Below are positions 756 through 16,640 of a stretch of 33,761 bases of DNA, piece by piece. The notes below the pieces were generated by a model. The model searched no databases. It was given only the letters and a program-made list of their open reading frames with translations, and was not told the DNA's origin. A program made the translations under genes and the position numbers. The first letter of the stretch is position 1; the number at the start of each line of letters is the position of its first letter. The stretch comes from an uncultured Oscillospiraceae bacterium. Its GTDB lineage: Bacteria > Bacillota > Clostridia > Oscillospirales > Oscillospiraceae. Location of the stretch: NCBI GenBank assembly GCA_947588955.1, contig CANPYX010000028.1:1-33761 (forward strand), read 5' to 3'.

Positions 756-935
756 AGGAAAGAGGAAAAGCTTGCGGAGACGTTAAATGAGGAGCAACTC
801 AAAATGCTTGAGACCCTCTTGGACAAGCACCTGACTCTCACCGCCGACCTTGAGTACGACTCCTTCACAACCGGCCTCCGCCTCGGGGCGCGGATGATGG
901 AGATACTTGATGTTGACGACGGTCAAAATTTGTGA
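756..935 (+). pseudogene. C-terminal remnant of a DUF6809-like protein
   Basis: The open frame reads EEKLAETLNEEQLKMLETLL and then FTTGLRLGARMMEIL before a TGA at 933-935. This matches the conserved C-terminus of DUF6809-type proteins, small proteins common on Clostridia mobile elements ('FxxGFRLGArlm'). An in-frame stop at 753-755 and unrelated sequence upstream show that the 5' half has been lost. The TGA lies inside direct repeat R1 (923-950), so the gene ended in the repeat, as the second recombinase gene does at R4. Family assignment is from memory of the motif. Confidence 0.5.
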
Positions 936-950
936 CGGTATAAGCAAAAA
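923..950 (+). repeat. Direct repeat R1 (candidate recombination site)
   Basis: First of six 28-bp repeats: TCAAAA, TTTG, then TGACGGTATAAGCAAAAA (one mismatch to the majority in the core). It overlaps the stop of the DUF6809-like remnant and lies 24 bp beyond the stop codon of the minus-strand aldo/keto reductase gene. Confidence 0.75.
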
Positions 951-974
951 GAGAGAAATCAGGGAAAGCACTTT

Positions 975-2075
975 TCAGAGAGTGGAAGAAGCAAAATACT
1001 CCGCGATTTCCCTCATCCTGTCCTCCTGCTTCACATGGAACGGGCAGCGGCTTTCGCAGTGGCCGCAGTGGAGGCAGGCGTCAGCGTGGAGGGGGAGATT
1101 GAGATAGTGGTTCTTTGCCAGCTCGTCGCCGACGCGGGCGAGGTCGTAGTATTTGTTGATGAGGCCCACGTTCAGGCCGGCGGGGCAGGGCTGGCAGTGG
1201 TTGCAGTAGACGCACACGCCTTCGGCGTCACGGGGCGTGAAGCGGCTGATGTCCGAATAGTCCAGCTCCTCCGGCGTGGCGTCCAGGTAGTGGAGCACGG
1301 TTTGGAGGTCCGCCATGTCCCGGACTCCGGGGAGCACCGTCAGAACGGCGGGGCGATCCAGGGCGTACTGGAAGCATTGAGCATGGGTGAGGGCGTGACC
1401 GAAAAGGGAACGTTTTTCGTCCAGAAGCTGGCCGCCGGCGAAGGGCTTCATCACGGAGATGCCCACGCCCATCTTCTCGCAATCCCGGTAAAGGGCGGCG
1501 CGCTGGGCAACCTCGCCGATGGCGTACTCGCCCTTTTGGTAGTCATAGGCGGGGTTGATGCTGAACATGAATAAGTCGATGAGTCCGGTGTCTAAAACGT
1601 GCCTTGCAATAGTGGGATCGTGGGAGGAAAAACCCAGGTGACGGATGACGCCATCTGCCTTGAGGCCCTTCATGTAGTCCCAGAGACCGCCGTTTAGAAC
1701 CTCGTCCAAATCTTCCGCGTCATCTACGCAGTGAATGAAGCCGAAGTCCGTATAATCCATCTTGAGGGTGCGGAAATTCCAGGCAATCTGCTCCTTGATC
1801 TCGTCAAGGTCGCGTGTCCAGCCGTACTCGCCGGTTTTGTAGATCGCGCCAAAGTGCATCTGAGTGAGGACCTTGTCACGCCTCCCGGCGAACGCTTCCG
1901 CGTAAGCGTGCAATGGCGCTTCGATGGACGGGGCCAGATCGAAATAGTTGATGCCATTCTCGATGGCGGCGTTCAGCACAGCGACCATCTCATCCTTCGT
2001 ACCCGAAAGGCTCCCGGCGCCAAGGCCGATGACGCTTATTTTCTCGCCGCCGTGGGGTAAAGTGCGATATTCCAT
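975..2075 (-). CDS. Aldo/keto reductase with C-terminal 4Fe-4S ferredoxin-like domain
   Basis: An NAD(P)H-dependent aldo/keto reductase TIM barrel (start VIGLGAGSLSG, then INYFDLAPS with the catalytic Asp, DFGFIHCVDD and MKPFAGGQL) is followed by a cysteine-rich end. This carries CVYCNHCQPCP and CLHCGHCESRCPF, two clusters of the type that bind 4Fe-4S centres. This AKR subtype probably couples reduction of aldehydes or quinones to ferredoxin-type carriers; the substrate is unknown. The start at 2075 is chosen because GGAGGT lies 5 bases upstream; an in-frame ATG at 2096 has no such site. It is the last gene of a three-gene minus-strand operon and ends 24 bp from repeat R1. Confidence 0.88.
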   Translation of the reverse strand: MEYRTLPHGGEKISVIGLGAGSLSGTKDEMVAVLNAAIENGINYFDLAPSIEAPLHAYAEAFAGRRDKVLTQMHFGAIYKTGEYGWTRDLDEIKEQIAWNFRTLKMDYTDFGFIHCVDDAEDLDEVLNGGLWDYMKGLKADGVIRHLGFSSHDPTIARHVLDTGLIDLFMFSINPAYDYQKGEYAIGEVAQRAALYRDCEKMGVGISVMKPFAGGQLLDEKRSLFGHALTHAQCFQYALDRPAVLTVLPGVRDMADLQTVLHYLDATPEELDYSDISRFTPRDAEGVCVYCNHCQPCPAGLNVGLINKYYDLARVGDELAKNHYLNLPLHADACLHCGHCESRCPFHVKQEDRMREIAEYFASSTL

Positions 2076-2111
2076 ATGTACCTCCGAAAAATCCATGTTA
2101 ACCGGACGAAT

Positions 2112-2438
2112 TTAGTCTTCCTTCCACACGTCCTTGGCGAGTCGGAACACCGCCCATGCCTTGGGCCAGCCCACGTAGAGGCCCACGTGGGTCACGATGG
2201 CGGCAATCTCCTCCCGCGTCACCCCATGGGCCTTGGCGTTCTCCAGGTGGTAGATGAGGGACGAATCGGTGATGCCGGAGCTCATCAGCGCCACAACGGT
2301 GATGATGCAGCGGGTCTTCAGGTCGATGTCCTGGTTGTTCCAGTTTTCGCCGAAGAGCACGTCGTCGTTGAAGTGGGCGAAGTCCGGCGCGAAATTGCCG
2401 AGCTGGTCTCGGCCCGCAGTTTGAGTGATTTTTTCCAT
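2112..2438 (-). CDS. Carboxymuconolactone decarboxylase (CMD)-like protein
   Basis: A small helical protein of the CMD/AhpD-like family. The conserved central stretch (LKTRCIITVVALMSSGITD, then a YHLENAKAHGVTREEIAAIV segment and YVGWPKAW) is present. The AhpD CxxC redox pair is not seen, so an alkylhydroperoxidase activity is doubtful. The family includes gamma-carboxymuconolactone decarboxylases and many uncharacterised members that travel with aldo/keto reductases. The start at 2438 has GGAGG nine bases upstream; the ATG at 2447 directly abuts that site. The ribosome binding site overlaps the stop codon region of the upstream lipoprotein gene, which indicates coupling. Confidence 0.82.
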   Translation of the reverse strand: MEKITQTAGRDQLGNFAPDFAHFNDDVLFGENWNNQDIDLKTRCIITVVALMSSGITDSSLIYHLENAKAHGVTREEIAAIVTHVGLYVGWPKAWAVFRLAKDVWKED

Positions 2439-2452
2439 GTGAAACATCCTCC

Positions 2453-2926
2453 TTATTCTAGGGACAGGGTGATGACGACGTCGCCGTTTGAGAGCAACTG
2501 CGCCATCTCCTCATCCGATTTGTCCATGATATGTCCGAGCCGCGTGTACGCCCAGGAGTTGGAGCCGTAGAAAACCACGATCTGGTCGCCGGAGTAGAGC
2601 ACAATGTCGCCGCTCCGCGTCACGGTCTGCGCGTCGTTTCGCGGCAAATCGGTCCCCAGGTACCCCACCTGCTCGAACCAGCCGTACATGGACATTTGAA
2701 CCGAGAGCGGTCCGTCCTTTGCCAGTTCATTAAGTGCCTCAACGGACTCGTTGTCCTCCCACTCCACCGAAATGTCCGTGTCGTTGATCCTCATTTTCAA
2801 TGTCCCGTCCACTTGTATTTCCTCCTTGTCTGTTGTGGAAGTCTCCCCTTGCGCCTCCCCACCGGAGCACGATGCAAGAGCGAGAAGCAAGAAGGGGAGA
2901 AGCAGTAAAATTGTGAGTTTTTTCAT
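2453..2926 (-). CDS. Cyclophilin-like fold lipoprotein
   Basis: The first 20 residues form a lipoprotein signal (KK, a leucine-rich core, then LASC), so the protein is probably tethered outside the membrane at Cys20. The remaining domain (LKMRINDTDISVEW, ALNELAKDGPLSVQMSMYG, GDIVLYSGDQIVVFYG, then YTRLGHI) matches the bacterial cyclophilin-like fold family PF18050. Members usually lack proven peptidyl-prolyl isomerase activity. First gene of the operon with the CMD-like and aldo/keto reductase genes; AAAGGA precedes the ATG and a promoter lies at 2962-2990. Confidence 0.8.
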   Translation of the reverse strand: MKKLTILLLLPFLLLALASCSGGEAQGETSTTDKEEIQVDGTLKMRINDTDISVEWEDNESVEALNELAKDGPLSVQMSMYGWFEQVGYLGTDLPRNDAQTVTRSGDIVLYSGDQIVVFYGSNSWAYTRLGHIMDKSDEEMAQLLSNGDVVITLSLE

Positions 2927-2961
2927 ACGGTTCCTTTTAAATGCTTTGTTGAACAGTATAA

Positions 2962-2990
2962 ATTATACCCGCTTCGACCCCGGATGTAAA
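2962..2990 (-). promoter_or_regulatory. Sigma-70/A promoter of the lipoprotein-CMD-AKR operon
   Basis: On the minus strand TTTACA (2985-2990) and TATAAT (2962-2967) are 17 bases apart, about 35 bases upstream of the lipoprotein start. Confidence 0.65.
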
Positions 2991-3057
2991 GGGCGGAATG
3001 CGGGTTTTAATTGATGGTGTAAAGCAATTTGGCAATGCTGAATAGGGCGAGAATACG

Positions 3058-3085
3058 TCAAAAATTGCGACGCTATAAGCAAAAT
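3058..3085 (+). repeat. Direct repeat R2 (candidate recombination site)
   Basis: TCAAAA, ATTG, then CGACGCTATAAGCAAAAT, with one mismatch at each end of the core. It lies 8 bp beyond the stop codon of the minus-strand kinase gene and 68 bp upstream of the operon promoter at 2962-2990. Confidence 0.75.
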
Positions 3086-3093: not shown

Positions 3094-3972
3094 TCAAGCG
3101 TAACGTTTTGCGATGGAAGAGACATTAGAAAGGTAGGATAGGCCGAAAAGGTTTAGGTGGTTGAGCAGGTGGTAGAAGTTATAGAGATCGCGGCGGTCAC
3201 GGTAGCCGCAGTCGATGGGATTAACCTCGTTGTAGGCCCGGTAGAAGCGCTCCGGGAAGCCACCGAAGAGCTCGGTCATGGCCAGCTCCGCCTCAAAGTA
3301 TCCCACATAGGCCGCTGGGTCCAGAATCCATGCCTTACCGTCAGGACCGCAGAGGGCGTTGCCGGACCAAAGATCACCGTGGATGAGGGAGGGGAAGGCG
3401 GGCTCCGGCAGGAGAGTGTCAAGACGCTCAATGACACTGGTCAAATCGCGCCGTGTGCGGTCATCCAAAAGTCCCCAGGCGAGCTTCATCTGTGGGATGA
3501 GGCGTCGCTCATGGAAAAACGCCACCCAACTGTCCATGGGAGTATTGATTTGTGGCGTGGAGCCGATGTAGTTGTCGGTTGGAAAGCCGAAGTAGGACCC
3601 GCACTCCGCCCGGTGGAGCGCCGCCAGCTCGTGCCCGAAAGTCTCCCAGTAGTCGGCACGACGTGAGGCGGGGGAGAGGTATTCCATGATCAAAAACGCC
3701 TCAGTTGCATCTACTCCAACTGCCAAAGGCTCCGGCACGCCAATGGTCCCGGGTGCCCTCAACGCCTCCAAACCGCGAGCCTCGGCGTTGAACATGTCCA
3801 GAAGTCCCGCCCGGTTGCATTTGAGAAAGACGTATTCGCCGCTTGAAAGCCCCAACCGATACGCGCGGTTAATATCCCCACCGGCCACCCTCTGCCGGTC
3901 AACAACCCTGACCGAGGGGCCAAAAAGGGCGGAGATTGCACTATCTATTGAGTTCACAGAAAGCATTGTCAT
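3094..3972 (-). CDS. Fructosamine kinase / aminoglycoside phosphotransferase-fold kinase
   Basis: A protein-kinase-like small-molecule kinase. An N-terminal lobe (VAGGDINRAYRL, FLKCN) is followed by the hinge IMEYLS, the catalytic loop LIHGDLWSGNAL (HGDxWxxN) and the metal-binding ILDPAAYVGY. These match the fructosamine-3-kinase family (YniA type), which phosphorylates ketosamines for protein deglycation. Length of about 290 residues is normal. Start choice is weak: ATG at 3972 or 3966, or TTG at 3984, and none has a strong ribosome binding site. The gene stands alone and its 3' end nearly touches repeat R2. Confidence 0.85.
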   Translation of the reverse strand: MTMLSVNSIDSAISALFGPSVRVVDRQRVAGGDINRAYRLGLSSGEYVFLKCNRAGLLDMFNAEARGLEALRAPGTIGVPEPLAVGVDATEAFLIMEYLSPASRRADYWETFGHELAALHRAECGSYFGFPTDNYIGSTPQINTPMDSWVAFFHERRLIPQMKLAWGLLDDRTRRDLTSVIERLDTLLPEPAFPSLIHGDLWSGNALCGPDGKAWILDPAAYVGYFEAELAMTELFGGFPERFYRAYNEVNPIDCGYRDRRDLYNFYHLLNHLNLFGLSYLSNVSSIAKRYA

Positions 3973-4053
3973 CACCCAAACCAATTTAGTAAATCCATTT
4001 TACTCCAAGCTGCGCTTGTTTTCAATATACTGCGTCGTGATGGACATTGTTTG

Positions 4054-4443: not shown

Positions 4444-6711
4444 ATGTCTGAATACCGGGCGGTTTCAGGGAGCCCTGCGGAGGACGAGTTTATCGAGCTC
4501 TTCTGCGACACCTTCGGGGCGGAGAAGGCGGGGTACCTCTATACGCAGTACCCCTTTTTTGACATCTACCAGAACAGCCGGTACGCGGACTTCCTCCTGG
4601 AGAGCGGGGAGCGGAAAATCGCCATTGAGATCGACGATGAAGCGTCCCACAACCGGCAGCTGGTGGCCTCCGGGAAGTTCTACGACGACCTTCTGAAGCA
4701 AAACAGCATGGTCTACCTGGGCTGGGACGTGTACCGCTGGGCGGTGCGGCAGATTCGGCAGCAGCCGGACGCCGTGAAGGACGAGCTTAGAGTATTCCTG
4801 GGCAGTGATCCGCATTTCAAAGAGATTGAGGACTACCTGCCCACCCAGCAGGGCAAGGCCCTCAGCGGGGACAAGCTGGAGCTCAGGGAGCATCAGAAGG
4901 CGGCGCTGGCCTCCCTCCGGCAGATGCGGGAGAATCATGAGACCATCGCCCTTCTCTACCACGCCACGGGCACCGGCAAGACGGTGACGGCGGTGACGGA
5001 CGCCAAAAGCTGCGGCGGACGCACCCTCTTCCTGGCCCACACCCAGGAACTGGTGGAGCAGGCGGCGGAGACATTCGAGGAGCTTTGGCCGGAGGCGACT
5101 GTTGGCCGTTTTGTGGAGGGACGCCGGGAGAGCGGCGCCCATGTTGTCTGCGGCAGCGTCCAAAGCGTGGCGCTCCACCTGGAGCTTTTCCGGGACGACG
5201 CCTTTGACTACCTCATCGTGGACGAGGCGCACCACGCCTCCGCCGATACATATCAGAAGATTTTGGCCTATTTCAAGCCGAAATTCACCCTGGGCCTCAC
5301 CGCCACGCCGGAGCGGGCGGACGACAGGAGCATCCTGGACATCTTCAAAAACACCGCCCACAAGCTGGATATCCAGACGGCGGTGCAGATCGGGGAGCTG
5401 GTGCCCATCCGGTGCATCCGCATCCACACGAATATCGATTTGACCAAAGTTCGCTTCAACAGCGTCCAATATAACATCCGGGATCTGGAGAGCAAGATCT
5501 ACGTCCCGGAGCGCAACCGGCTCATTGTGGACACGTGGCTCCAATACGCGCGCGGCCGCCGGACGGTGATGTTTTGCGCTTCGGTGAGGCACGCAGAGCA
5601 GATCGCGGAGATTTTCCGGGAAAACGGCGTCTTGGCCGCGGCGGTGTCCGGCGGGATGAAGCAGTCGGAGCGTCGGGAGTTCCAGGACCGGTTTGTCAGC
5701 CGTGAAATTCAGGTCCTCTGCGCCTGCGACCTTCTCAACGAGGGCTGGGACTGCCCGGAGATCGAGGTGCTTTTCATGGCCCGGCCCACCATGTCCAAGG
5801 TGCTGTACACCCAGCAACTTGGGCGCGGGATGCGGCTTTTCGAGGGCAAGGAGAGCCTGATGGTCTTCGATTTCGTGGACAACGCCAGCCTTTACAACAC
5901 GCCCTATTCGCTGCACCGGCTTTTCAGGCTCCGGGATTACCGCCCCGGCGCTCTGGTGGAGGCTCCCGCGGAACGGAAAGCGGCGGAGGCGGAGCTTTAC
6001 GCCAGGGGAGAGAAGCCGGAGGCCCTTCTCGACTGGCCCGTGGACGCCACGGATTACGAGCTGGTGGACCTTTTCAACTGGCAGGACGAGGCGGCGGGGA
6101 TGATTTCCCAGATGGAGTTTGTGCGCCGGGTGAACGTCCAGAGCGAGACGATTGAGAGCTATGTCCGTGAGGGCAAGCTGGTGCCGGATCTGGTGGTCCC
6201 CATGAGCGAGCACCGGCAGTTTAAGTATTTCAAGGAGGAGACGCTCCAAAAATACGCCTTCCAGTACGGCTGGACCCTCATCGACGACTCCAACCGCAAG
6301 GATCTGTTCATGGACATGGTCCGCCAGATGGACATGAGCTATTCCTACAAGCCCGTCCTCATCAAGGCCATTTTGAAATACGCCGACAGCAAGGGACGGG
6401 TGAAGCTGGAGGATATAGTCAATTATTTCCGCGACTATTACGAGTCCCGCCGCTCCGTCGGTCTTGTCGTCGAGAAGTCCAACAGCATCTTCGCCAAGGG
6501 CGCCTACACCGACAAGGACGCCCAGCGCAACATCCTCTCCAACCCCTTCAAACGCTTCGAGGACATGCAAATGCTCCGCCACACCAAGACCCTCGGCATC
6601 ATCCAGGTAGACGAGTCCGTCTGGAAACGGCTGACGGAGGAGGAGAAGCGGGAGATTGAGGACGTGTGTGACGAGAAGCTGGGGGAGTATTATGGGAGGA
6701 TAAATCAGTGA
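4444..6711 (+). CDS. SF2 DEAD/DEAH helicase with N-terminal restriction-endonuclease-like domain
   Basis: A 755-residue protein. Residues 1-110 look like a PD-(D/E)xK/DUF559-type nuclease: ADF (Asp49) followed by KIAIEID (Glu62, Asp64), with ExD in place of the usual ExK. The helicase core follows: LREHQKAAL, Walker A ATGTGKT (174-180), DEAH (260-263), LTATPER (285-291), and the second RecA lobe with LNEGWDCP and the arginine-finger motif QQLGRGMR near 458-465. The C-terminal 250 residues are unassigned. The architecture resembles type III/type I restriction translocases and several defence helicases that work on duplex DNA. No partner methyltransferase or specificity subunit is present. Strongly GC-rich, unlike the next gene. 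Confidence 0.88.
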   Translation: MSEYRAVSGSPAEDEFIELFCDTFGAEKAGYLYTQYPFFDIYQNSRYADFLLESGERKIAIEIDDEASHNRQLVASGKFYDDLLKQNSMVYLGWDVYRWAVRQIRQQPDAVKDELRVFLGSDPHFKEIEDYLPTQQGKALSGDKLELREHQKAALASLRQMRENHETIALLYHATGTGKTVTAVTDAKSCGGRTLFLAHTQELVEQAAETFEELWPEATVGRFVEGRRESGAHVVCGSVQSVALHLELFRDDAFDYLIVDEAHHASADTYQKILAYFKPKFTLGLTATPERADDRSILDIFKNTAHKLDIQTAVQIGELVPIRCIRIHTNIDLTKVRFNSVQYNIRDLESKIYVPERNRLIVDTWLQYARGRRTVMFCASVRHAEQIAEIFRENGVLAAAVSGGMKQSERREFQDRFVSREIQVLCACDLLNEGWDCPEIEVLFMARPTMSKVLYTQQLGRGMRLFEGKESLMVFDFVDNASLYNTPYSLHRLFRLRDYRPGALVEAPAERKAAEAELYARGEKPEALLDWPVDATDYELVDLFNWQDEAAGMISQMEFVRRVNVQSETIESYVREGKLVPDLVVPMSEHRQFKYFKEETLQKYAFQYGWTLIDDSNRKDLFMDMVRQMDMSYSYKPVLIKAILKYADSKGRVKLEDIVNYFRDYYESRRSVGLVVEKSNSIFAKGAYTDKDAQRNILSNPFKRFEDMQMLRHTKTLGIIQVDESVWKRLTEEEKREIEDVCDEKLGEYYGRINQ

Positions 6712-6757
6712 ACAAACTTGGTTCCCAATTCAAATTCACAACAAAACTGAGGGCAAC

Positions 6758-7645
6758 ATGGAAAAGAAAATGACGAGAGATCAGCACTATGTTCCTCAAT
6801 TTTACCTTCGCAATTTTACTGATGAAAGAGGAGAAGTGTGGATATACGAACCTGATAACAATAGAATATTTAGCGCAAAACCGAAATCAATATGCTTTGA
6901 AAAAGATTTATATGAGACACAATTTCAGAATGAAAATACGCCTTTTGGAAAGTATCTGCTTCCAAATAATATAGAAAATATCTTTCAAGGCCAAGAAGGG
7001 AAATATGCTAAACTAATTAATAAAATTAAATCAATATGTACGATTGGCCTTGGGAGGGATGTGTTAATTCTTAAGCCGTGCGAAGAAGAAATGTTGAGAT
7101 CTCTTGTAGCGAATTTACTTGTAAGAAATCCCAAAAATATGAAAAGATTAGGGCTAAATGACTCGCTTGATGATACTATTGATCAAAGTATATACAATCA
7201 AATTGACAGTTTACTTAGTCAATTAGGGATTGGTGAGGCAGAAACATTCATTAAAGCGGCACGAATGAAGGTGACCTTGACGGAAGAAATAGAGGGGTCA
7301 TTACCTCTAAAAATAAATGAAGATTTAGCAAAACTTAACTTCACTTTTCTGTATGCAAATAGCGACGAATTTATAACAAGCGATATTCCGATTGCTTTTG
7401 GAAGTGATATTTATGCTATGGGAGAAAACAAAATGTGCTTGTATCTGGCCTTAACTCCCAAAATCGCAATACTTTTTGGGAATTATAAGAGCATGTCGCA
7501 ATATAGGAACGGGTTGCTACCCCTAAATGAGAAAACTGTGCGTAAGTTTAATTTCCAAATTCTAAGCAAAAAGCACTATATCCGATATATTATGAGTTCT
7601 AACCAAGAAATACTTCAAACATATGTACGTGAGGTTATTGAATGA
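6758..7645 (+). CDS. DUF4238 domain protein
   Basis: Begins with TRDQHYVPQFYLRNFTDERG, the signature 'HYVPxFYLRnF' of DUF4238, and has the expected length of just under 300 residues. The function of the family is unproven; it is frequent in defence islands and may be nuclease- or toxin-like. The gene is markedly AT-rich, with AAT/AAA/ATA codons throughout, in sharp contrast to the GC-rich helicase gene 46 bases upstream, so it was probably acquired separately. The start at 6758 has GAGGG upstream (ATG at 6770 is an alternative). Its stop overlaps the first codon of the following macrodomain gene. Confidence 0.8.
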   Translation: MEKKMTRDQHYVPQFYLRNFTDERGEVWIYEPDNNRIFSAKPKSICFEKDLYETQFQNENTPFGKYLLPNNIENIFQGQEGKYAKLINKIKSICTIGLGRDVLILKPCEEEMLRSLVANLLVRNPKNMKRLGLNDSLDDTIDQSIYNQIDSLLSQLGIGEAETFIKAARMKVTLTEEIEGSLPLKINEDLAKLNFTFLYANSDEFITSDIPIAFGSDIYAMGENKMCLYLALTPKIAILFGNYKSMSQYRNGLLPLNEKTVRKFNFQILSKKHYIRYIMSSNQEILQTYVREVIE

Positions 7646-8147
7646 ATACTCAGATTATAATTGCCGACATCACCGCCCTCCACTGTGACGCCACCGTAAA
7701 CCCGCAAACCGGAGTTTGCTGGGCGGTGGGGGAGTGGATGGAGCGATTCACCGGGCGGCGGGAGCGGAACTTTTAGAAGAATGCCGGACGCTTGGCGGGT
7801 GCCGGACGGGGGAGGCAAAGATCACAAAGGGGTACCGGCTGCCGGCGAAATTCGTCATCCACACCGTGGGACCGGTGTACAGCGGAGCTCCGGAGGACGC
7901 CGTTTTGCTGGCGGACTGTTACCGAAATTCGCTGATATTGGCGCGGGAGAACGGCATCCACACTATCGCATTCCCAGCAATCTCTACGGGCGTGTACGGA
8001 TACCCGGTGAGGGAGGCCACAGAGGTCGCCGTGGACACAGTGAAAAAGTGGCTAGCGGACAACGCCGACTATCCAATGGAAGTGACCTTCTGCTGCTTCG
8101 ACGGGCGGACGAGGAAAGTTTACGAGGAGCAGACAACCCGGATATAG
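7642..8147 (+). pseudogene. Macrodomain (ADP-ribose-binding/deacylase) gene with frameshift
   Basis: From ATG 7642 the frame reads [20 protein letters not shown], the normal macrodomain start, and then goes out of frame. The protein resumes one frame over with [43 protein letters not shown] and [13 protein letters not shown], all standard for YmdB/MacroD-type O-acetyl-ADP-ribose or ADP-ribosyl hydrolases. A single base is missing at about 7702, in the codon after VN of the VNAAN motif. Restoring one base yields a full domain of about 169 residues. Either the gene is freshly inactivated or this is a sequence error. The ATG overlaps the DUF4238 stop, which argues for translational coupling before the lesion. 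Confidence 0.88.
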
Positions 8148-8152
8148 ATACG

Positions 8153-8189
8153 AAAAGACGGCTTGTGAGCAATCACAGGCCGTCTTTTT
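8153..8189. terminator. Bidirectional intrinsic terminator between convergent genes
   Basis: The stem AAAAGACGGC (8153-8162) pairs with GCCGTCTTTT (8179-8188), with an inner GTGA/TCAC helix. A-rich and T-rich flanks on either side let it serve both the plus-strand macrodomain gene and the minus-strand GNAT gene. Confidence 0.85.
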
Positions 8190-8195
8190 ATATTT

Positions 8196-8615
8196 TCAAA
8201 TCGCTTTCACCAGAAACAGCTCCATCGGCTGTACGTGACCCGGACTGTCCAAGACCATCCCACCGCAGTCGTGGTAGCCGAGGGTGCGGTAGAAGTGTTG
8301 TGCCTCCTCGTCTGACTGAGTGGAGGTCAGGACCAGGTCATGGCCTTGGGAACGCATGTCCGATTCCCAAAACTCCATCAGCGCTCTGCCGTAGCCAGTG
8401 CGTTGGTGGGCGGGGGATATGTAGAGCAGGGTGCAGAAGGGGGTGTTATCCCAAAAGAGGTTGTATCTCAATATCCCGACGGGCGTGGTGTCCTCAGTGA
8501 GGACATACGCCCGTTTTAAATTTACCTTGTTTTCAAACTCCGCCTCCGACAGGTGCCGGTCAAGGGTAAACCAGAAATCCCTGTCGCTAATTTGCGCGTA
8601 TCTGATTTTCCGCAT
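8196..8615 (-). CDS. GNAT family N-acetyltransferase
   Basis: A 139-residue GNAT fold. The acetyl-CoA pyrophosphate-binding motif A is seen as LLYISPAHQRTGYGRALMEF (Q/RxxGxG/A form), and motif B as EEAQHFYRTLGYHDCGG. The acceptor substrate is unknown. The start at 8615 has AGGAGG eight bases upstream. It lies 18 bases after the stop of the hypothetical gene, so it is the last member of a minus-strand operon that ends at the terminator 8153-8189. Confidence 0.85.
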   Translation of the reverse strand: MRKIRYAQISDRDFWFTLDRHLSEAEFENKVNLKRAYVLTEDTTPVGILRYNLFWDNTPFCTLLYISPAHQRTGYGRALMEFWESDMRSQGHDLVLTSTQSDEEAQHFYRTLGYHDCGGMVLDSPGHVQPMELFLVKAI

Positions 8616-8633
8616 ATATGAACCTCCTGAACG

Positions 8634-9134: not shown

Positions 9135-9226
9135 CGTCTGCCTCCTCCGAAAAAAATCAAAATTTTTTAAAAATAAAGTACGCTTTTGGGCCTTGGAAGT
9201 TGTGGTAATAGAAGTAGGGGGGAAAA

Positions 9227-10036: not shown

Positions 10037-10642
10037 AGATCAACATCCTCTGCTAATAGAAATGAAATGATACTATTATCTTACCACACTCCGCGGCGAA
10101 AGTCACGCGAATATTTCCAAACGTCGGAGGTATTGGCGGAGCGTGATTCTTCGTCGAACCTGATAAAAACGAGTGGTCCAAAATGTGCAGGTCTACAAAA
10201 ACATTAAGTTTTTTCTGATAAACCCTGGTCACTACCCTTCTGTTTCGGGAATAGAGGTGAGAGGACTTTTTCGGTCATGGTGCAGAAGAGAAAAATTATC
10301 AACATCCCCCTCGTTTTGGCGTGTAGATGTCCGATGAATAGTGAGGGGATACGAAGGCGGGGAAAATGGATTGATGCGTTTTTTGTAAGAGAAGGTTATA
10401 GATACGAGAAAAATTCGGCAATAGGGAAGGGGGAGGGCGAGTCGTTGGTGTCGCCAATGAGAATATAAAATCCCGAAAAATTATTCCAAGGCAGGGTGTG
10501 ATTTGAAGTAAAAATGTCCGTTGTTGGGTGAGGGAGTATTCAAAAACAATGACGCAATAAGCAAAAAGAGGGGTGAGAGCTCGACAGGAAATCGGTAAGT
10601 GAGAAATGTGTTCAACTGATAGATCTATGAAAGGAGTACAAC
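10037..10642. other. Noncoding 0.6-kb boundary region holding repeat R3
   Basis: No convincing gene is present; a 63-codon frame at 10277-10468 lacks a ribosome binding site. The stretch contains the promoter region of the minus-strand zinc-ribbon gene, repeat R3 (10540-10567) and the leader of the HTH gene at 10643. GAGGACTTTTT near 10262 resembles AAGGACTTTTT, which lies just before repeat R5. Confidence 0.6.
10540..10567 (+). repeat. Direct repeat R3, left boundary of the recombinase block
   Basis: TCAAAA, ACAA, then TGACGCAATAAGCAAAAA (one mismatch in the core). It lies 75 bp upstream of the excisionase-like gene and, together with R4, brackets the block of five DNA-binding and recombinase genes. 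Confidence 0.75.
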
Positions 10643-10852
10643 ATGAAAGAGACGACCTACAAAAGTTACGACGAGCTGCCGCTGTTCCTGAACGCGGAGA
10701 CGGTGGCGAAAGCATTGGGGGTGTCCATCTCGTCCGGCTACGAGCTGATGCGCGAGCCTGGGTTCCCGGCGCTGAGAGTGGGGAACAGGATCGTGATCCC
10801 CAAGGAGCGGTTCATCCAGTGGGTGAACGAGCGCAGCGGAGGTGTGAGATGA
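10643..10852 (+). CDS. Excisionase-like helix-turn-helix protein
   Basis: A 69-residue protein with a single MerR/AlpA-like winged helix-turn-helix: LFLNAETVAKALGVS for the first helices, GYELMREPGFPALRVGNR for recognition helix and wing, and IVIPKERFIQWVNE. This is the PF12728 pattern of excisionases, which bend DNA and set recombination direction. AAAGGAG lies upstream of the ATG. The stop codon overlaps the ATG of the next gene (ATGA). Its position at the left end of a recombinase block, just inside repeat R3, fits an excisionase or regulator of the recombinases downstream. Confidence 0.82.
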   Translation: MKETTYKSYDELPLFLNAETVAKALGVSISSGYELMREPGFPALRVGNRIVIPKERFIQWVNERSGGVR

Positions 10853-11307
10853 TCGTTCAAAACTCCGGGCTCTTCTTCCCGGTGCCAAAATCGTTGTTCT
10901 ATTTCAACCTGGACGCTTGCGAGATCGCCACCTACGTCTACTTAAAGCTGTTGGAGGATCGGAAGAAATACGTCTGCTGGCCCAGTTACCGCACCATCGG
11001 CGACGCTATCGGGCGCAGCCGCAACTCGGTACAGAAGTACGTGGAGGGCCTGGAACGCATGGGCCTCATCACCACCGAGCCCACGAAGATGGTGACGAAG
11101 TTCGGCGACGTGTGCAACGGGACGCTGATGTACCACATCAATCCCATCTGGGATGTGGTGACCAAGTATCAGCAGTTCCTCCTGGAGCAGGACGAGTACA
11201 AAAACGAACAGCGGCGCGTTGCGGCCCTGCTAAGCTCGAAGCCTGAAGCGCCCACTGCGCCGCAGGAAGCGGCGGAGCCTGGACTTTCGCCGCGGAGTAA
11301 CGCGTGA
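10849..11307 (+). CDS. Helix-turn-helix protein (plasmid/phage replication-type)
   Basis: A 152-residue protein with a winged helix-turn-helix in residues 20-85 (YLKLLEDRKKYVCWPSYRTI then GDAIGRSRNSVQKYVEGLERMGLI), the HTH_36 arrangement found in phage and plasmid replication initiator proteins and in regulators of mobile elements. The C-terminal 50 residues are low-complexity, rich in Ala, Pro and Glu. The ATG overlaps the stop of the excisionase-like gene and AGCGGAGGTG lies upstream, so the two are translationally coupled. It may be an autonomous replication or regulatory protein; no ATPase or nickase partner is nearby. Confidence 0.75.
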   Translation: MIVQNSGLFFPVPKSLFYFNLDACEIATYVYLKLLEDRKKYVCWPSYRTIGDAIGRSRNSVQKYVEGLERMGLITTEPTKMVTKFGDVCNGTLMYHINPIWDVVTKYQQFLLEQDEYKNEQRRVAALLSSKPEAPTAPQEAAEPGLSPRSNA

Positions 11308-11562: not shown

Positions 11563-11580
11563 AGAAAGGAGAAATCAGAA

Positions 11581-12017
11581 TGGATTACGAAAACAAGGTC
11601 AAGACCACCTTATGGCTCCATCCCAGTATTATCGAAAAAGCGGACAGCACCATGAAGCTTGCCAAATGCCACAGCAGAAGCGAGCTCATGGAGGACGCCC
11701 TGCAATTCTACTGCGGCTACGTGCAGAGCAAGGACGCCTCCAAGTATCTGTCCACTGTGATAGCCGAGACAATCCGGGAGGTCATGGAGAACAACGACAA
11801 CCGCATCCGCTCTCTGCTGTTCAAATTGGCGGTGGAGCTCAACATGGCCTGCCACACCATCGCCGCCCACTTCCGGGTGGACGACATCGACCGAAATGCC
11901 CTCCGGGCGTTCGCGGTGAACGAAGTGAAGAAGACGAACGGACAGATCAGCTTCGACCACGCCCTGGATGTGCAACGGCGTATCCCCGTGAAGGATGACC
12001 AGAAGTGGCCGGAATAA
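11581..12017 (+). CDS. Ribbon-helix-helix DNA-binding protein
   Basis: A 145-residue protein. Residues 5-45 (NKVKTTLWLHPSIIEKADST, CHSRSELMEDALQFYCGYV) form the beta-strand plus two helices of a ribbon-helix-helix (CopG/MobC-like) domain. The rest is helical, with VIAETIREVMENNDNRIRSL as a likely coiled segment. Such proteins repress mobile-element promoters or act as relaxosome accessories. No relaxase is present here, so regulation of the recombinases downstream is more likely. AAAGGAG lies just before the ATG. It follows the structured leader and precedes the first recombinase by 87 bases. Confidence 0.78.
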
Positions 12018-12104: not shown

Positions 12105-13286
12105 ATGGCAAAGCGCAGACCCTCCGGCGACGGGATGGTGCGGCACCGGGCGGACGGGCGCTGGGAGGGGCGGATCGTCATCGGACACAAGGCGGACGGC
12201 GCGTCCGTCTTCCGGTACGTCTACGCGCCCACGCAGAAGGAACTGACGGCAAAGCTCCACGGTGAGATCGAGGACTGCCGGGGCGTGGATCTCAAGGAGA
12301 AGTGCCGCCTCACGGTGGAAGAGTGGCTGATGCGGTGGCTGGGCGAGTACGCCGCGCCGCGGGTGCGGGAGGGTACGCTGAGAGGCTACCGGCTCAGCAT
12401 AGAGAAGTACATCGTACCGCGCGTCGGCGAGCGGAGGCTGACGGCGCTGAAGGAGCGGGATCTGAGACGGCTCTACAAATACCTCCTGCGGAACGGGAGA
12501 TTGAGAGAAGCCGGTGGGCTATCGCCCACGACGGTGCGAAAGACCCACGCCCTCCTGCACCGGGCGCTGGACGACGCTGTGAAGGCGCGGCTCATTCCGC
12601 GCAACCCCGCCGACGGGATCACACTCCCCAAGGGCGAGCGCCCGCCGCTGAGGGTGCTGACCGACGCGGAGCTGACGACGTTCATGGACGCGCTGGAGAA
12701 CGATCCGTGGCACGACTTCTTCTACCTGGAGCTGACCACGGGACTGCGGCGAGGTGAGATCTGCGGGCTCATGTGGAGCGACCTGGACGCCGCCGGCACG
12801 CTGAAAATCTCCCGCACGCTCCATGTCAAACGGGGCGGCGGCGTGACGGTGGGCGAGCCAAAGACGGCGACGGGCGTCCGCAAGTTACTCCTGCCGCCCA
12901 GCACGGCCCAGCTCCTGCGGGAGCGGAAACGCTCGGCGGTGTCCCAGTGGATCTTCCCGAACCCCCTCCACCCGGAACGCCCAATCAATCCGGGCTCGGC
13001 GCACACGAACCTCAAGCGCCTTCTCAAAAAGGCGGGTCTGCCGGACATACGCTTCCACGACCTCCGTCACACGTTCGCCACACACGCCATCGCCGGGGGC
13101 GTGGACGCTAAGACGCTGTCCGGCATCCTGGGTCACACCGACGCGGCGTTCACGCTGAACACATACACCCACGTCACCGGCGACATGCACCGCCGGGCCG
13201 CCGAGATCGTGGGCGGGTTCATGGAGGACATCTTCGGAAAGGAGCTCAGACCATGGCAAGACGCAAATCAGGCACCGGCACCGTAA
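12105..13286 (+). CDS. Tyrosine recombinase/integrase 1
   Basis: A 393-residue phage-type integrase. Residues 1-60 are an arm-binding domain of the AP2-like type (GDGMVRHRADGRWEGRIVIG); 70-165 are the core-binding SAM-like domain (VEEWLMRWL, YIVPRVGERRL); 180-380 are catalytic. All active-site residues are present: Arg215 (TTGLRRGE), Lys253 (EPKTATGVRK), His318 and Arg321 (FHDLRHTFATHA), His344 (ILGH) and nucleophile Tyr354 (LNTYTHV). GAAAGGGGTG precedes the ATG. Its 3' end overlaps the start of integrase 2 by 34 bases in another frame. The protein looks intact and should act on the repeats that bracket the block, though this is inferred from position only. Confidence 0.92.
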   Translation: MAKRRPSGDGMVRHRADGRWEGRIVIGHKADGASVFRYVYAPTQKELTAKLHGEIEDCRGVDLKEKCRLTVEEWLMRWLGEYAAPRVREGTLRGYRLSIEKYIVPRVGERRLTALKERDLRRLYKYLLRNGRLREAGGLSPTTVRKTHALLHRALDDAVKARLIPRNPADGITLPKGERPPLRVLTDAELTTFMDALENDPWHDFFYLELTTGLRRGEICGLMWSDLDAAGTLKISRTLHVKRGGGVTVGEPKTATGVRKLLLPPSTAQLLRERKRSAVSQWIFPNPLHPERPINPGSAHTNLKRLLKKAGLPDIRFHDLRHTFATHAIAGGVDAKTLSGILGHTDAAFTLNTYTHVTGDMHRRAAEIVGGFMEDIFGKELRPWQDANQAPAP

Positions 13287-14692
13287 GACATCGCCGGGAC
13301 GGACGTTGGGAGGGCAGAATCGTTGTCGGCTACGACGACAAGGGACTGCCCGTCACGAAAAACGTCCTGGGCAGGACAAAGCGGGAGTGCGAGACAAAGC
13401 TCAAAAGCTTGCGTTCTCAGCTCACGCCGCTGAAGCCGGACAAGCTCCGAGCGGACATGCCCTTCGGCGACTGGCTGGACCGGTGGTATCAGGAGCTGGT
13501 TAAGCCCCGCCTCCGGCCCAAGTCCCGCGAGGACTATGAGAATGAAATCTACAACCACATCATCCCGCGGATAGGGAAGGTGCCGCTCAATAAAATCTCC
13601 GTGGAAGTCCTGCAACAATTCTACACCGACCTCAAGCAAAATGGGCGCCTGACGCTCCGGGACATCTACGGCCCCGGCGTGTCGGACAGGCTGGTGGAGG
13701 GGTGCCACCTCCGTGTCCGCTCGGCGCTGGCCGAGGCTGTGGAGCGGCGGCTGATTCCCAGGAATCCAGCCGAGGAATGCAAGCTCCCCCAAAGTGCCCG
13801 CCGCGAAAAGCAGGTGCTGACCCGCGAGGAGCTTCAGCGATTTCTGACTCAGGCACAGGAGGAGGGGTACTACGAGCTGGTGCTGTTGGAGCTGGCGACG
13901 GGGCTCCGGCGCGGGGAGATATTGGCGCTGAAGTGGTCGGATTTGAATCCCAAAACGGGGGAGCTGAGAGTTGAACGTCAGGTCTACCGCACGGGCGGAA
14001 AGCTGACGTTGGCCCCGCCAAAGACAAAGACGTCGGCGCGGAGCCTGTTGATCCCCAAGGCCCTGCTCGACGTCCTCAACGATCTGCGCACCCATACTGC
14101 GTCAGAGTGGATGTTCCCATCCCCGGTGAAACTCGATTCGCCCCTGGACCCGGCCTCGGTGCGCAAGCGAATCCAGACGATCCTGGACCACGCCGGCTGT
14201 CGCAAGCTCCGCTTCCACGACCTCCGCCACACCTTCGCCACGCTGTCGCTGGAGGCCGGAATGGACGTGAAGACCCTCTCCGCCATCATCGGCCACAACA
14301 GCGTCTCCACGACCCTGAACGTCTACACCCACGTCACCGACACCATGCGCGCCCAGGCCGCCGCGGCCATCGACAGGGCCATCACCGGCACCGCCGCCCC
14401 CACGCCCACCCCAGAGCCGGAAAAGCCCTCCGCGCCCTTCCAACCCTACAAGGGCATCCGCCGCAAACCCGGCACCGGATGCATCACCCAAGTCAGCGAA
14501 CACTGCTACGAGGGCAAATACACCCCCCGCCTCCTCAATGGCACCCGCCTCATCAAACCCGTCTACGCCCCCACCCGTGAAGAGTGCGAGAGAAAGCTGG
14601 CAGAGATGATCGAAAAGGTCAAGCCGGAGGTGGAGCGGATGAAAAGAGAGATGCGGGAGAGGATGACGATGTCAAAAACCATGACGCTATAA
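13253..14692 (+). CDS. Tyrosine recombinase/integrase 2 with duplicated arm-binding domain
   Basis: A 479-residue paralogue of integrase 1. It has an N-terminal arm-binding domain (SGTGTVRHRRDGRWEGRIVV), a core-binding domain (80-180) and a complete catalytic set: Arg219 (ATGLRRGE), Lys257, His322 and Arg325 (FHDLRHTFATLS), His348 (IIGH) and Tyr358 (LNVYTHV). Unusually, after a proline-rich linker (381-398) a second arm-type domain follows at 401-455 (RRKPGTGCITQ, YAPTREECERKLAEM), matching residues 3-55 of the same protein. Start at 13253 has AAAGGAG upstream. The last codons and stop lie within repeat R4, so recombination at R4 would change or preserve the C-terminus. Confidence 0.92.
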   Translation: MARRKSGTGTVRHRRDGRWEGRIVVGYDDKGLPVTKNVLGRTKRECETKLKSLRSQLTPLKPDKLRADMPFGDWLDRWYQELVKPRLRPKSREDYENEIYNHIIPRIGKVPLNKISVEVLQQFYTDLKQNGRLTLRDIYGPGVSDRLVEGCHLRVRSALAEAVERRLIPRNPAEECKLPQSARREKQVLTREELQRFLTQAQEEGYYELVLLELATGLRRGEILALKWSDLNPKTGELRVERQVYRTGGKLTLAPPKTKTSARSLLIPKALLDVLNDLRTHTASEWMFPSPVKLDSPLDPASVRKRIQTILDHAGCRKLRFHDLRHTFATLSLEAGMDVKTLSAIIGHNSVSTTLNVYTHVTDTMRAQAAAAIDRAITGTAAPTPTPEPEKPSAPFQPYKGIRRKPGTGCITQVSEHCYEGKYTPRLLNGTRLIKPVYAPTREECERKLAEMIEKVKPEVERMKREMRERMTMSKTMTL

Positions 14693-14699
14693 GCAAAAA
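14672..14699 (+). repeat. Direct repeat R4, right boundary of the recombinase block
   Basis: TCAAAA, ACCA, then TGACGCTATAAGCAAAAA, a perfect majority core. It contains the last six codons and the stop of integrase 2. With R3 it defines a 4.1-kb unit. Confidence 0.8.
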
Positions 14700-14728
14700 A
14701 GGCCGCCCCGGATATATCTGAGCGGCTT

Positions 14729-14748
14729 TGTGGTGTGTGGAACTGTGG
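14729..14748 (+). repeat. TGTGG cluster right of R4 (candidate arm sites)
   Basis: TGTGGT (14729), TGTGG (14736) and ACTGTGG (14742), the last 70 bases from the start of R4. R5 and R6 each have ACTGTG 72 bases from their starts. Confidence 0.4.
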
Positions 14749-14876
14749 GCGCAGGAAAATCATGGAACACGAAAAAGCAAGCTGAGATACAGCGAAAACG
14801 CACGAAAAAGCAATCTGGACCTTCAATCAAGTCATCAGTTTCAGAAAAATAATTATTGCCCCTCTTAAAAACTAAT

Positions 14877-15060
14877 AAAAATGTGATGATATAACACATA
14901 TTTCTATATAAAAATGTGATACACGCCCTATAGTTAAGAAAATAATATGGCGTGAAAGAAAACTACTTCGAGGGACTTTAGAATAGAAATCACAACTTTT
15001 TCAAAGGAGTTTTGTAGTAGAAGTGCAACTTTTCATAAGGACTTTTTACTGAGAGGACAT
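14877..15060. repeat. Degenerate 33-bp periodic repeats (iteron-like)
   Basis: Two copies of AAAAATGTGAT start at 14877 and 14910, 33 bases apart. Two copies of CAACTTTT followed by a TCA/CAT and AAGGA element are also 33 bases apart (units 14976-15008 and 15009-15041, 20 of 33 bases identical). A weaker copy fills 14943-14975 and a partial one 15042-15060, directly before R5. The region is AT-rich and noncoding, and it could bind an initiator or recombinase. Confidence 0.45.
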
Positions 15061-15088
15061 TCAAAATCTGTGACGCAGTAAGCAAAAA
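15061..15088 (+). repeat. Direct repeat R5 (candidate recombination site)
   Basis: TCAAAA, TCTG, then TGACGCAGTAAGCAAAAA (two mismatches in the core). ACTGTG at 15133 is 72 bases from its start. It lies 65 bp beyond the stop codon of the minus-strand ATPase gene. Confidence 0.75.
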
Positions 15089-15153
15089 TAGGAAGAAAAA
15101 AACCAGAGAGAAGAGGTCGGGGGAATCAGGCCACTGTGTATTTGAACAAAGAA

Positions 15154-16431
15154 TCAATTCTTCAGCGCCGTAATTGGCACCACATACACGCCATCCTCAC
15201 GCCTGTAGGCATAGGGTGAGACGCCGGTCAGGACCATCAGGAAGGAAGGTTCCTTCATCTTTGATGTATCGATTTTGTCCGCCACGGCCTTCAACGTGTG
15301 AACGCCTTCCTCGATGAGCTTATCGCCGCCGAGCTTGACCTCTATAAGACCATAACTTCCATTGCGCAGGTGGATAACGGCATCACACTCCAATCCCTCT
15401 TTGGTACGGAAATGGTACACGTTTCCACCCAACGCCTCCGCATAGACGCGCAAATCGCGAATGCAGAGAGTCTCAAAAAACAACCCGCAGGTTTTCAGAT
15501 CGTTCAGCAGGTCGCCGGGGCCGACACCGAGCGCAGCTGTGGCAATGGAAGGGTCAACAAAATAGCGTGTATCAGATGTGCGGATCGCCGTTTTTGAGCG
15601 GAGATTAGGGCTCCAAGCCGGGCAATCCTCAATCACAAAGATTTTTTTCAGCGCATTTGTATAGGAGACGACAGTATCCATGCTCAATTCCATATCGTCG
15701 CTGACATTGATATCCTCGCAAATCGTGGTGTTTGGCGCCTGGGTCCCTTGATGCCGCGCAAGGGAACGCATCAAAAGCCGGGCACGGGTCTCGTTACGGG
15801 AAACACCGTCCACACGGCTGATATCAGATTTTACGACGGCGTCCAGGTAATCAAAAGACTGTACCAGTGCGTCCTCCCCCTCCAAGAAGGTCGTCTGCGG
15901 CCATCCACCGCGACAGATGAGAAAAGCAATATCCTCCAGCGTGGCCTTGCTTTCAGAAAAAATCTGATTGTCACCGGGAGAAAACAGCGCGCCAAGGCTG
16001 ACAGCACCGGAAGACTCCCCGGATTCGTAGAGGCTCATGGGCCGCATTTTGATCCAGGCGAAGCGGCCGGTTCCCGTATGATGTACCTGATCCATCTCCG
16101 CGGGCACCGCAGAGCCAGTCAGCAGAAAGTGACCGAAGCCATTCCGGTGATCCACCTCAAACCGCGCAGCGTCCCACAGCTTGGGAGCCATTTGCCACTC
16201 ATCGATCAAACGTGGCGTATTACCCTGCAGGAGGGAACGAGGGCTAATATCTGCTAATTGAAGATTTTGTTTCATCCGGTCAGGATCGCTCATATACAAA
16301 ACACTGGCGGCGTGTTGTTCACAGGTAGTGGTTTTGCCGCACCATTTTGCGCCTTCCACGAGGATCGCCCCTTTGCTTCTCAGACGATTCGCAATAATCT
16401 CGTCAATGACTCTCGGCTTATAGCTTGCCAT
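15154..16431 (-). CDS. AAA ATPase with DUF4143 domain
   Basis: A 425-residue protein. Residues 20-140 form an AAA_14 domain with Walker A GAKWCGKTT (27-35), Walker B-like LIDEWQ and sensor HFLLTGSA. The C-terminal DUF4143 region includes ECDAVIHLRNGSYGLIEVKL, which has the D..ExK layout of a PD-(D/E)xK nuclease-like fold. These STAND-like ATPases are very common in Clostridia and Bacteroidetes genomes, and their role is unknown. GGAGGG lies upstream of the ATG and a consensus promoter at 16463-16491. It is the only gene of the R5-R6 unit, carrying its own promoter, like a single-gene cassette. Confidence 0.88.
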   Translation of the reverse strand: MASYKPRVIDEIIANRLRSKGAILVEGAKWCGKTTTCEQHAASVLYMSDPDRMKQNLQLADISPRSLLQGNTPRLIDEWQMAPKLWDAARFEVDHRNGFGHFLLTGSAVPAEMDQVHHTGTGRFAWIKMRPMSLYESGESSGAVSLGALFSPGDNQIFSESKATLEDIAFLICRGGWPQTTFLEGEDALVQSFDYLDAVVKSDISRVDGVSRNETRARLLMRSLARHQGTQAPNTTICEDINVSDDMELSMDTVVSYTNALKKIFVIEDCPAWSPNLRSKTAIRTSDTRYFVDPSIATAALGVGPGDLLNDLKTCGLFFETLCIRDLRVYAEALGGNVYHFRTKEGLECDAVIHLRNGSYGLIEVKLGGDKLIEEGVHTLKAVADKIDTSKMKEPSFLMVLTGVSPYAYRREDGVYVVPITALKN

Positions 16432-16462
16432 TCAGTGTCCCTCCATGCTATAGAATGACTAT

Positions 16463-16491
16463 ATTATAGCGTATGGACATGTAAGATTCAA
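16463..16491 (-). promoter_or_regulatory. Sigma-70/A promoter of the DUF4143 ATPase gene
   Basis: On the minus strand TTGAAT (16486-16491), a 17-base spacer and TATAAT (16463-16468), about 32 bases before the start codon. Confidence 0.75.
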
Positions 16492-16543
16492 GAAAAACCT
16501 GCGATTCGGCAAAGAAATTTCCTGCGATTTGGAGAAAATATTT

Positions 16544-16581
16544 CCCGAGAAGTGGCGACAATACAACCGCCACTTCGCGGG
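16544..16581. terminator. Strong hairpin between the ATPase promoter and R6
   Basis: GAAGTGGCG (16549-16557) pairs with CGCCACTTC (16568-16576), extended by CCCG/CGGG. ATTTTGTT follows on the plus strand and AAATATTTTC on the minus strand. It may insulate the ATPase gene from read-through; its use is uncertain. Confidence 0.5.
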
Positions 16582-16612
16582 ATTTTGTTAAGACGAATAG
16601 CGGCGTGGTATG

Positions 16613-16640
16613 TCAAAATTTGTGACGCTATAAGCAAAAA
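16613..16640 (+). repeat. Direct repeat R6, rightmost copy
   Basis: TCAAAA, TTTG, then TGACGCTATAAGCAAAAA, a perfect majority core. It is the last copy before the tRNA operon, about 115 bp from its terminator, and marks the right end of the repeat array in this window. Confidence 0.8.

Follow-up and report, generated by a model that had tools for sequence, protein, structure and literature searches.

An uncultured Oscillospiraceae bacterium (GenBank assembly GCA_947588955.1, contig CANPYX010000028.1) carries a stretch of 33,761 nucleotides, referred to here as the window, in which a 28-bp repeat occurs six times in the same direction and separates groups of genes with unrelated contents. How were these groups brought together, and which enzyme could recognize the repeats? 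A sequence-only reading of the window had proposed an integron-like cassette array or successive tandem integrations at one site. The comparisons described here point, with a probability of about 0.7, to a site-specific tandem-accretion (cassette) array in which the repeats, named R1 to R6, would be core attachment sites and a pair of tyrosine recombinases encoded between R3 and R4 the likely recombinase.

The six copies were located at 923..950 (R1), 3058..3085 (R2), 10540..10567 (R3), 14672..14699 (R4), 15061..15088 (R5) and 16613..16640 (R6), all on the + strand, exactly where and in the direction that the sequence-only reading had placed them. They differ from TCAAAANNNNTGACGCTATAAGCAAAAA at 1, 2, 1, 0, 2 and 0 positions, in agreement with the 0 to 2 mismatches claimed for each copy. 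The distances between successive repeats, 2135, 7482, 4132, 389 and 1552 bp, likewise match the block sizes of 2.1, 7.5, 4.1, 0.4 and 1.6 kb given earlier. A search of the bacterium's own draft genome (2.56 Mb, 58 contigs) with at most 3 mismatches returned these six copies only (6 forward, 0 reverse), so that the absence claimed for the window from 16750 onward extends to the rest of the draft genome, and the reversed-sequence control had 0 matches under the same threshold. There were also 0 matches in 100 dinucleotide shuffles of the window. A chance origin of the repeats was rejected on the basis of the shuffles and of their confinement to the window. A viral origin was rejected as well: the 18-base core had 0 exact matches in the viral collection, and 16-base cores were found in 18 and 19 stretches of it, once in each, which was taken as chance. 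The copies were said to lie at gene ends or between genes; they do, with the refinement that two of the six overlap coding ends, R1 containing the stop codon of a DUF6809 gene and R4 the last codons and the TAA (14690-14692) of recombinase 2.

The evidence that carries this interpretation is the behavior of the flanking DNA in other genomes of the genus. Homology breaks were counted in 21 contigs of the tRNA-Val array type, compared between genomes; contigs C18 of G001 and C8 of G014 were deliberately excluded, contigs at other loci (G001 C4, G024 C40, G011 C26, G002 C5, G002 C16 and G030 C26) were not part of the count, and G005 C25 and G001 C52 were also outside it. Left alignment ends fell within 8 bp of a repeat start in 128 of 571 cases (chance mean 2.3, maximum 17, in 1000 random placements) and right alignment ends within 8 bp of a repeat end in 72 of 551 (mean 2.1, maximum 16), an excess over the chance mean of about 55-fold at repeat starts and about 34-fold at repeat ends. 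When only distinct positions were considered the numbers were 21/264 left ends (chance 1.0, maximum 6) and 18/279 right ends (1.1, maximum 5). Block boundaries lying off the repeats had been named beforehand as the observation that would speak against the sequence-only reading; the boundaries coincide with the repeats far above chance.

The switching is one-sided at four of the copies. The left flank is conserved at R1 (the DUF6809 gene) and R4 (recombinase 2), and the right flank at R2 (the end of a fructosamine kinase gene) and R6, while the opposite sides vary; the right flank of R6 is homologous in 10 other copies and its left flank is of several unrelated types. No homology breaks were found at the edges of R3 in the contig comparison. 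Since one flank is conserved and the other variable at R1, R2, R4 and R6, the R1-R2 and R4-R6 intervals act as exchange slots. Slots with the same flanks and swapped contents measured 403, 404, 1767, 1768, 2135, 2135 and 3673 bp for the R1-R2 type, and 1941, 3651, 3657, 5189 and 10398 bp for the R4-R6 type. The position of the exchange was approached by a column test on 48 copies, with 35 pairs that have only the left flank in common and 22 that have only the right, the pairs being non-independent. Repeat columns 7, 10 and 15 agree more in the same-left pairs (+0.50, +0.36 and +0.32), and columns 17-26 (ATAAGCAAAA), of which columns 18-20 are the stop codon of recombinase 2, are nearly invariant. 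The crossover most likely falls to the right of column 15, in or next to the invariant core.

The block between R3, its left repeat, and R4 encodes on the + strand an excisionase-like helix-turn-helix protein of 69 amino acids (10643..10852; HTH_17 above the cut-off, TIGR01764 below its cut-off), an HTH_36 protein (10849..11307; family match), a 146-amino acid protein with no family match (11577..12017), which by eye we take to be ribbon-helix-helix-like, tyrosine recombinase 1 (393 amino acids, 12105..13286) and tyrosine recombinase 2 (479 amino acids, 13253..14692). The two recombinase genes overlap. That one block holds two intact tyrosine recombinases, as had been claimed, was confirmed by the open frames, the Phage_integrase matches and the conservation of the aligned catalytic positions, the choice of which aligned residues count as catalytic being our assumption. 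Structure prediction and fold search were used solely to describe recombinase 2; its nearest solved folds are the Tn1549 and lambda integrases, and it has an additional C-terminal region, predicted as three strands and a long helix, that, judging by eye and from a weak sequence match, we think resembles an N-terminal arm-type domain.

Across the genus, repeat-bounded blocks range from 0.2 to 26 kb, and 23 of 27 have no recognizable tyrosine recombinase; two of the 27 (G014 841-1247 and G016 4604-10626) have a tRNA fragment within them and are perhaps not genuine units. Of the 4 blocks that do encode one, those of the window, G002 and G024 have recombinase 2 ending inside their right-hand repeat, and that of G033 has a decayed recombinase 2 remnant that stops 18 bp before it. 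The recombinase pair is open in the window and in G024. The G033 array also includes a block (L040 18985-20000, L041 1-975) in which self-alignment revealed an internal tandem repeat with offsets of about 67 bp over nearly 2 kb.

The repeat was found in 17 of the 149 genomes searched, namely the genome under study and 16 of 33 congeners, and in 0 of 115 others. At least two copies per contig occur in 11 of the 17 carriers, always with uniform direction within the contig; examples among the congeners are 7 copies on contig 11 of G002, 5 in G024 and 4 in G033. Among 400 evenly drawn genomes of the family, two single matches with 3 mismatches lie outside the genus. Several R-like copies at other loci of congeners (L043, L053, L192 and L193) precede a hairpin-rich repeat that they have in common, about CCCCTCAAATTCTGCGGGGGACCCCCTGCAA; in G014 a tRNA-like 3′ end, judged by eye, also follows.

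A parallel system was found in 9 other species of the genus, which have paralogous recombinase pairs (50-55% identity for recombinase 2 and 52-59% for recombinase 1). In 10 of the 11 contigs examined, G026 being the exception, a different repeat, R′ (AAAANTACANNGCCTAATCTAAAAAAG), contains the end of the second recombinase gene, and alignment of R′ and R on the stop codon by eye places R′ at the same codons. In 35 of the 45 pairs formed by these 10 contigs, the homology of this driver, the recombinase-containing unit, breaks off no more than 2 bp from the end of R′; in the others it extends farther by 3-6 bp (3 pairs), 25-37 bp (3 pairs) or 184-486 bp (3 pairs), or ends 103 bp short (1 pair). 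The sequence-only reading had suggested a comparison of strains for the presence or absence of single blocks that leave exactly one repeat behind. Carried out between species on this sister array, the comparison showed one unit and exactly one extra repeat: in G014 a 4,057-bp unit plus one additional R′ lies between the driver and the DNA that directly follows the driver on contig 60 of G002, an arrangement that in a between-species comparison reads as the insertion of one unit plus one repeat. The genes of this unit encode, according to PADLOC models, a short Argonaute and a TIR-containing Argonaute-associated partner. Farther to the right on the G014 contig are a reverse transcriptase and an ATPase for which the best models are the type I-B reverse transcriptase and ATPase-Toprim I-B. 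A third repeat family, R″ (TACNNNGCCTTATCTAAAAGAG), is represented by a pair of copies on contig 36 of the own genome (15242-17010, L200), where no related recombinase was found in the stretch examined. The contents between R″ copies are partly swapped in G018, G024 and G002, the slot in G024 holding a NADAR-domain gene; in these arrays the left joint switches at the repeat and the right joint does not always do so.

Homologues of recombinase 2 (E<=1e-125) were detected in 64 of the 400 family genomes and in 25 of 106 genera, the genus under study contributing 7 of the 64 genomes, and most of them aligned past residue 460. The human-faecal record MT835887 has three same-strand R-like copies, with 5, 7 and 0 mismatches to a pattern partly built from MT835887 itself, of which the third starts 36 bp past the stop codon of the second recombinase and has a tRNA-Pro gene adjoining. 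A degenerate R-like pattern, designed after these human-faecal copies had been viewed so that its figures are exploratory, matched 33 of 64 chosen family genomes (reversed control, 0) and 26 of 57 recombinase 2 carriers outside the genus; 10 of the 64 had been preselected for earlier matches and matched again (10/10), and 23 of the other 54, chosen for recombinase 2, matched. In 14 contigs of other genera, picked for having pattern matches, neighboring copies are co-oriented in 24 of 24 pairs, and a tyrosine recombinase is present in 7 of the 24 blocks between repeats. Alignment ends at repeats in other genera amounted to 14/371 and 14/358, where chance gave 1.2 for both (maximum 16 for the former, 12 for the latter); the signal of switching at the repeat edges is weaker than in the genus. 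Four human-faecal records with homologous recombinases (4.4, 4.6, 5.6 and 15.9 kb) had no exact terminal overlap of 15-399 bases and so gave no sign of a circular driver. In one human-faecal record labelled as a bacteriophage, MT839295 (L215), the recombinase pair adjoins a MobA/VirD2-type relaxase gene, and because of this neighbor it looks like a mobilizable element rather than a phage.

These data are consistent with the following mechanism. The R3-R4 block would be the driver of the array: next to R3 it encodes an excisionase-like protein, and the second of its two overlapping recombinase genes ends inside R4. Units without a recombinase would be inserted, lost or exchanged via recombination between direct repeats, and the R3-R4 pair or a relative probably acts on them in trans. 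The pair is regarded as the likely enzyme because of its position, its co-occurrence with the repeats and the parallel systems. The exchange point would lie in columns 17-26, at or 3′ of the recombinase stop codon; an exchange there would therefore keep the gene whole upon insertion at R4 and leave one repeat per joint. The array as a whole would sit within an island at the tRNA-Val gene. Recombination itself, the action of the pair on these sites, the formation of circles and the movement of units in trans are what we infer from comparing sequences.

Several observations weigh against this interpretation. The comparisons are between species, and neither circular forms, nor read pairs that would join block ends, nor empty sites within one species were seen. 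Most alignment ends are away from the repeats (443/571 left and 479/551 right), as is expected if genes also turn over inside the blocks, and some block edges, for example the one at which the aldo-keto reductase block begins in G002, have no repeat. Columns 6, 11, 16, 23 and 27 lean to the right flank (-0.10 to -0.20). In G002, G009, G011, G016 and G033 the recombinase 2 gene is interrupted, split or incomplete, and arrays persist in several of these; a recombinase 1 close to that of the window (91-92%) is found only in G024 and G012, and none above the threshold was found in G009 and G011. About ten repeat-like copies occur at other loci of congeners (G001, G002, G005, G011, G014, G024 and G030), and some of them adjoin the hairpin repeat and not a recombinase; two of these off-array copies, on contig 4 of G001, carry R2-type flanks, and this contig may belong to an array. 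Outside the genus, the recombinase often starts just to the right of a repeat instead of ending in one. An alignment test for a repeated site at recombinase 2 stop codons at 45 loci, of which at most 44 are independent because L111 and L268 look identical in place, did not give higher same-strand than opposite-strand values (p=0.28).

The alternative with the strongest claim, to which we assign an appreciable chance somewhat below even, is stepwise accretion: each block was once a complete element, its own recombinase decayed, attL and attR were left behind as in cis-mobilizable elements (CIMEs), and nothing moved in trans. Such a route is described for tandem structures in a review of integrative and mobilizable elements (IMEs; PMC5704250). 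It would agree with the tyrosine recombinases still present in 7 of 24 blocks in other genera, with the human-faecal relative of the pair that adjoins a relaxase gene, as in an IME, and with about 70 bp at the end of the 4,057-bp unit that resemble a recombinase 3′ end. On the other hand, the other blocks of the window contain no convincing recombinase remnant, the best candidate being 41 residues at 15742-15864 (E=0.004) antisense to the ATPase gene, units as small as 230-406 bp occur, and the 4,057-bp unit is a well-defined defence system of two genes. Cassettes moved in trans and decayed former elements may both exist.

The remaining explanations can be judged by what surrounds the repeats. 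The tRNA-Val(cac) gene (16793..16869, - strand) has its 3′ end 152 bp from R6 and is followed rightward by the tRNA-Glu and tRNA-Met genes. Many array contigs, not all of them as examined, carry tRNA-Val or its 3′ fragment. In several congeners the last 45-46 bp of the tRNA gene recur at the edges of islands (L042, L046, L035-L037, L085, L089 and L090), which suggests several islands in tandem and a locus that is also a target of tRNA-Val-type insertions. In G024 a 45-bp fragment lies 600 bp to the left of the first repeat; the window has the intact gene only, with no tRNA fragment at R1-R5. In G021, G030 and G032, the distance from the end of recombinase open reading frames (ORFs) to the intact tRNA-Val is about 172-174 bp, and GTGGGTCA direct repeats lie in this interval. 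It is rather unlikely, however, that tRNA-Val integrases built the islands and that the repeats are nothing more than conserved termini of recombinase genes or of islands that homologous recombination has reshuffled. The tRNA fragments at several island edges and the proximity of R6 to the tRNA favor this origin, as do TGGTCA-type motifs, found exclusively on the right side of R6-type copies (two motifs in 8/11 and one in 3/11, as compared with 0/33 other copies), the 11 R6-type copies being non-independent by shared descent. The motifs could mark an arm-bearing site at R6; as a general arm site TGGTCA was rejected, with 1/45 family loci against 20/900 background windows and no enrichment. What argues against a tRNA-Val origin is that R1-R5 have no tRNA fragment, that homology switches at a 28-bp repeat with unrelated flanks, a length that is short for homologous recombination, and that the same behavior is seen at another locus in a second system, which has a different repeat.

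It is very improbable that the array is a true integron in which the repeats serve as attC sites. Co-directional sites, a tyrosine recombinase at one variable joint and units without a recombinase are shared with integrons, but the predicted fold of the repeats does not exceed that of shuffles (z -0.1 to -1.6), GTTRRRY is matched near 1/6 copies, the TIGR02249 integron-integrase model scores 39.5 and 61.2 bits against a 265-bit cut-off, and the blocks, 0.2-26 kb long, have genes in both directions. The integron was rejected for lack of an attC-like fold or boxes at the six copies and for integrase models far under the cut-off. Of the two proposals made from the sequence alone, tandem integrations are well supported by the switching at repeat edges and by the insertion of one unit with one repeat, and integron likeness did not hold beyond analogy, the resemblance consisting of oriented blocks mostly without recombinases and a joint that varies where the recombinase gene itself ends. 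We consider it equally improbable that the repeat serves in regulation or as a terminator and sits between genes by chance. The location of the copies at gene ends or between genes would suit such an element, but the repeat has no strong fold, the array keeps one orientation whichever way the neighboring genes run, and homology breaks at the repeat edges.

Three features of tandem accretion, directly repeated putative attachment sites at one locus, a recombinase beside a site and boundaries at repeats, were found at this locus. In SCCmec composite islands, same-direction repeats separate elements with and without a recombinase, but the recombinases are serine recombinases and the target is one staphylococcal gene. 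Compared with integrons, which also have oriented sites, recombinase-less units and a variable joint at the recombinase, the window array has no attC fold, its integrase is not of the IntI type by model and its recombinase ends inside the site. Tandem accretion of elements derived from IMEs and from integrative and conjugative elements (ICEs), such as the ICESt1-related CIMEs, is described in PMC5704250 as directly repeated attachment sites that bound tandem elements, many without integration genes. The window array is like these in its direct repeats that bound tandem elements, many without a recombinase, and unlike them in that its imperfect 28-bp joint is also the 3′ end of its own recombinase gene and that its driver consists of two recombinases, with most units having no recognizable tyrosine recombinase. 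Among the systems compared, the nearest layout is that of the Dehalococcoides ssrA islands (PMC3146451), which are in tandem within 100 kb of ssrA with 20-bp direct repeats; 15 islands have no integration module, the module has two recombinases and a repeat is embedded in a dsiB homologue. Those islands differ in their serine recombinases (a CcrB homologue) and ssrA target, the window array having tyrosine recombinases and another repeat. The 'Tyr duo' IMEs MTnPi1-3 of Prevotella belong to another phylum, and repeat-divided arrays do not appear in the passages on them considered here (PMC5704250). GInts (PMC5385486) and SEs (PMC9345347) also combine several recombinases with cargo, GInts with imperfect flanking repeats. 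GInts, however, have a ginABCD operon of three tyrosine recombinases and ginD, compared with the two recombinases of R3-R4, and SEs have an intA-CDS2-intB-CDS4 arrangement and imperfect inverted 19-bp motifs; arrays with multiple oriented joints do not appear in the passages considered on either. In the open PMC literature, no description of the repeat or of such arrays in this family was recognized among the matches listed.

The other blocks of the window carry varied contents. To the left of R1 there is a short ORF (45-344) that resembles the C-terminus of SduA (Shedu), just under the Pfam cut-off and better in PADLOC, and is probably a fragment at the window edge; it precedes the DUF6809 gene fragment that ends in R1 (780..935, + strand). 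The R1-R2 block encodes on the - strand, all with family matches, an aldo/keto reductase with a ferredoxin-like C-terminus (975..2096), a carboxymuconolactone decarboxylase family protein (2112..2447) and a cyclophilin-like protein with, by eye, a lipoprotein-like N-terminus (2453..2926). In the R2-R3 block are a fructosamine kinase (3094..3984, - strand), a ResIII-type helicase with partial matches to restriction/defence helicase models (4444..6711, +), a DUF4238 protein (6758..7645, +), a macro domain protein (7716..8147, +) and a GNAT acetyltransferase (8196..8615, -), the kinase and the last three with family matches. The 389-bp R4-R5 block is A+T-rich between the repeats (14700..15060), with no likely gene and no ORF of 80 amino acids contained within it; its 282 bp at 14746-15027 are inverted in G024 (91% identical), where the right end and both repeats are unflipped, and are possibly an invertible segment. 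The R5-R6 block encodes an AAA_14/DUF4143 ATPase (15154..16431, - strand) assigned to the PADLOC candidate defence family PDC-S01. A scan of 19 proteins of the window gave no relaxase or conjugation family, as expected of an IME or ICE with mobilization genes of its own, and no serine recombinase family, to which the Ccr recombinases of SCC belong.

A broader proposal can be put forward tentatively. The array could represent an unnamed and widespread cassette-capture system of gut Oscillospiraceae, an integron counterpart without attC hairpins, whose driver has its capture site over its own stop codon, with a crossover position that lets the gene survive each event. Units without a recombinase, including some complete defence systems, would be added at this site and traded along the oriented array, and the site families R, R′ and R″ would exist side by side in one genus; we regard this as possible rather than probable. 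Because the joints are tagged, units can be counted, assigned to types and compared between metagenomes, which makes it possible to read how accessory and defence genes may be exchanged, unit by unit, in a common gut family. The content between the repeats is a place to look for defence systems, as the Argonaute/TIR unit and the neighboring retron-type genes suggest. Should the pair indeed mobilize units without a recombinase in trans, this would be a non-integron capture system with several families of sites.

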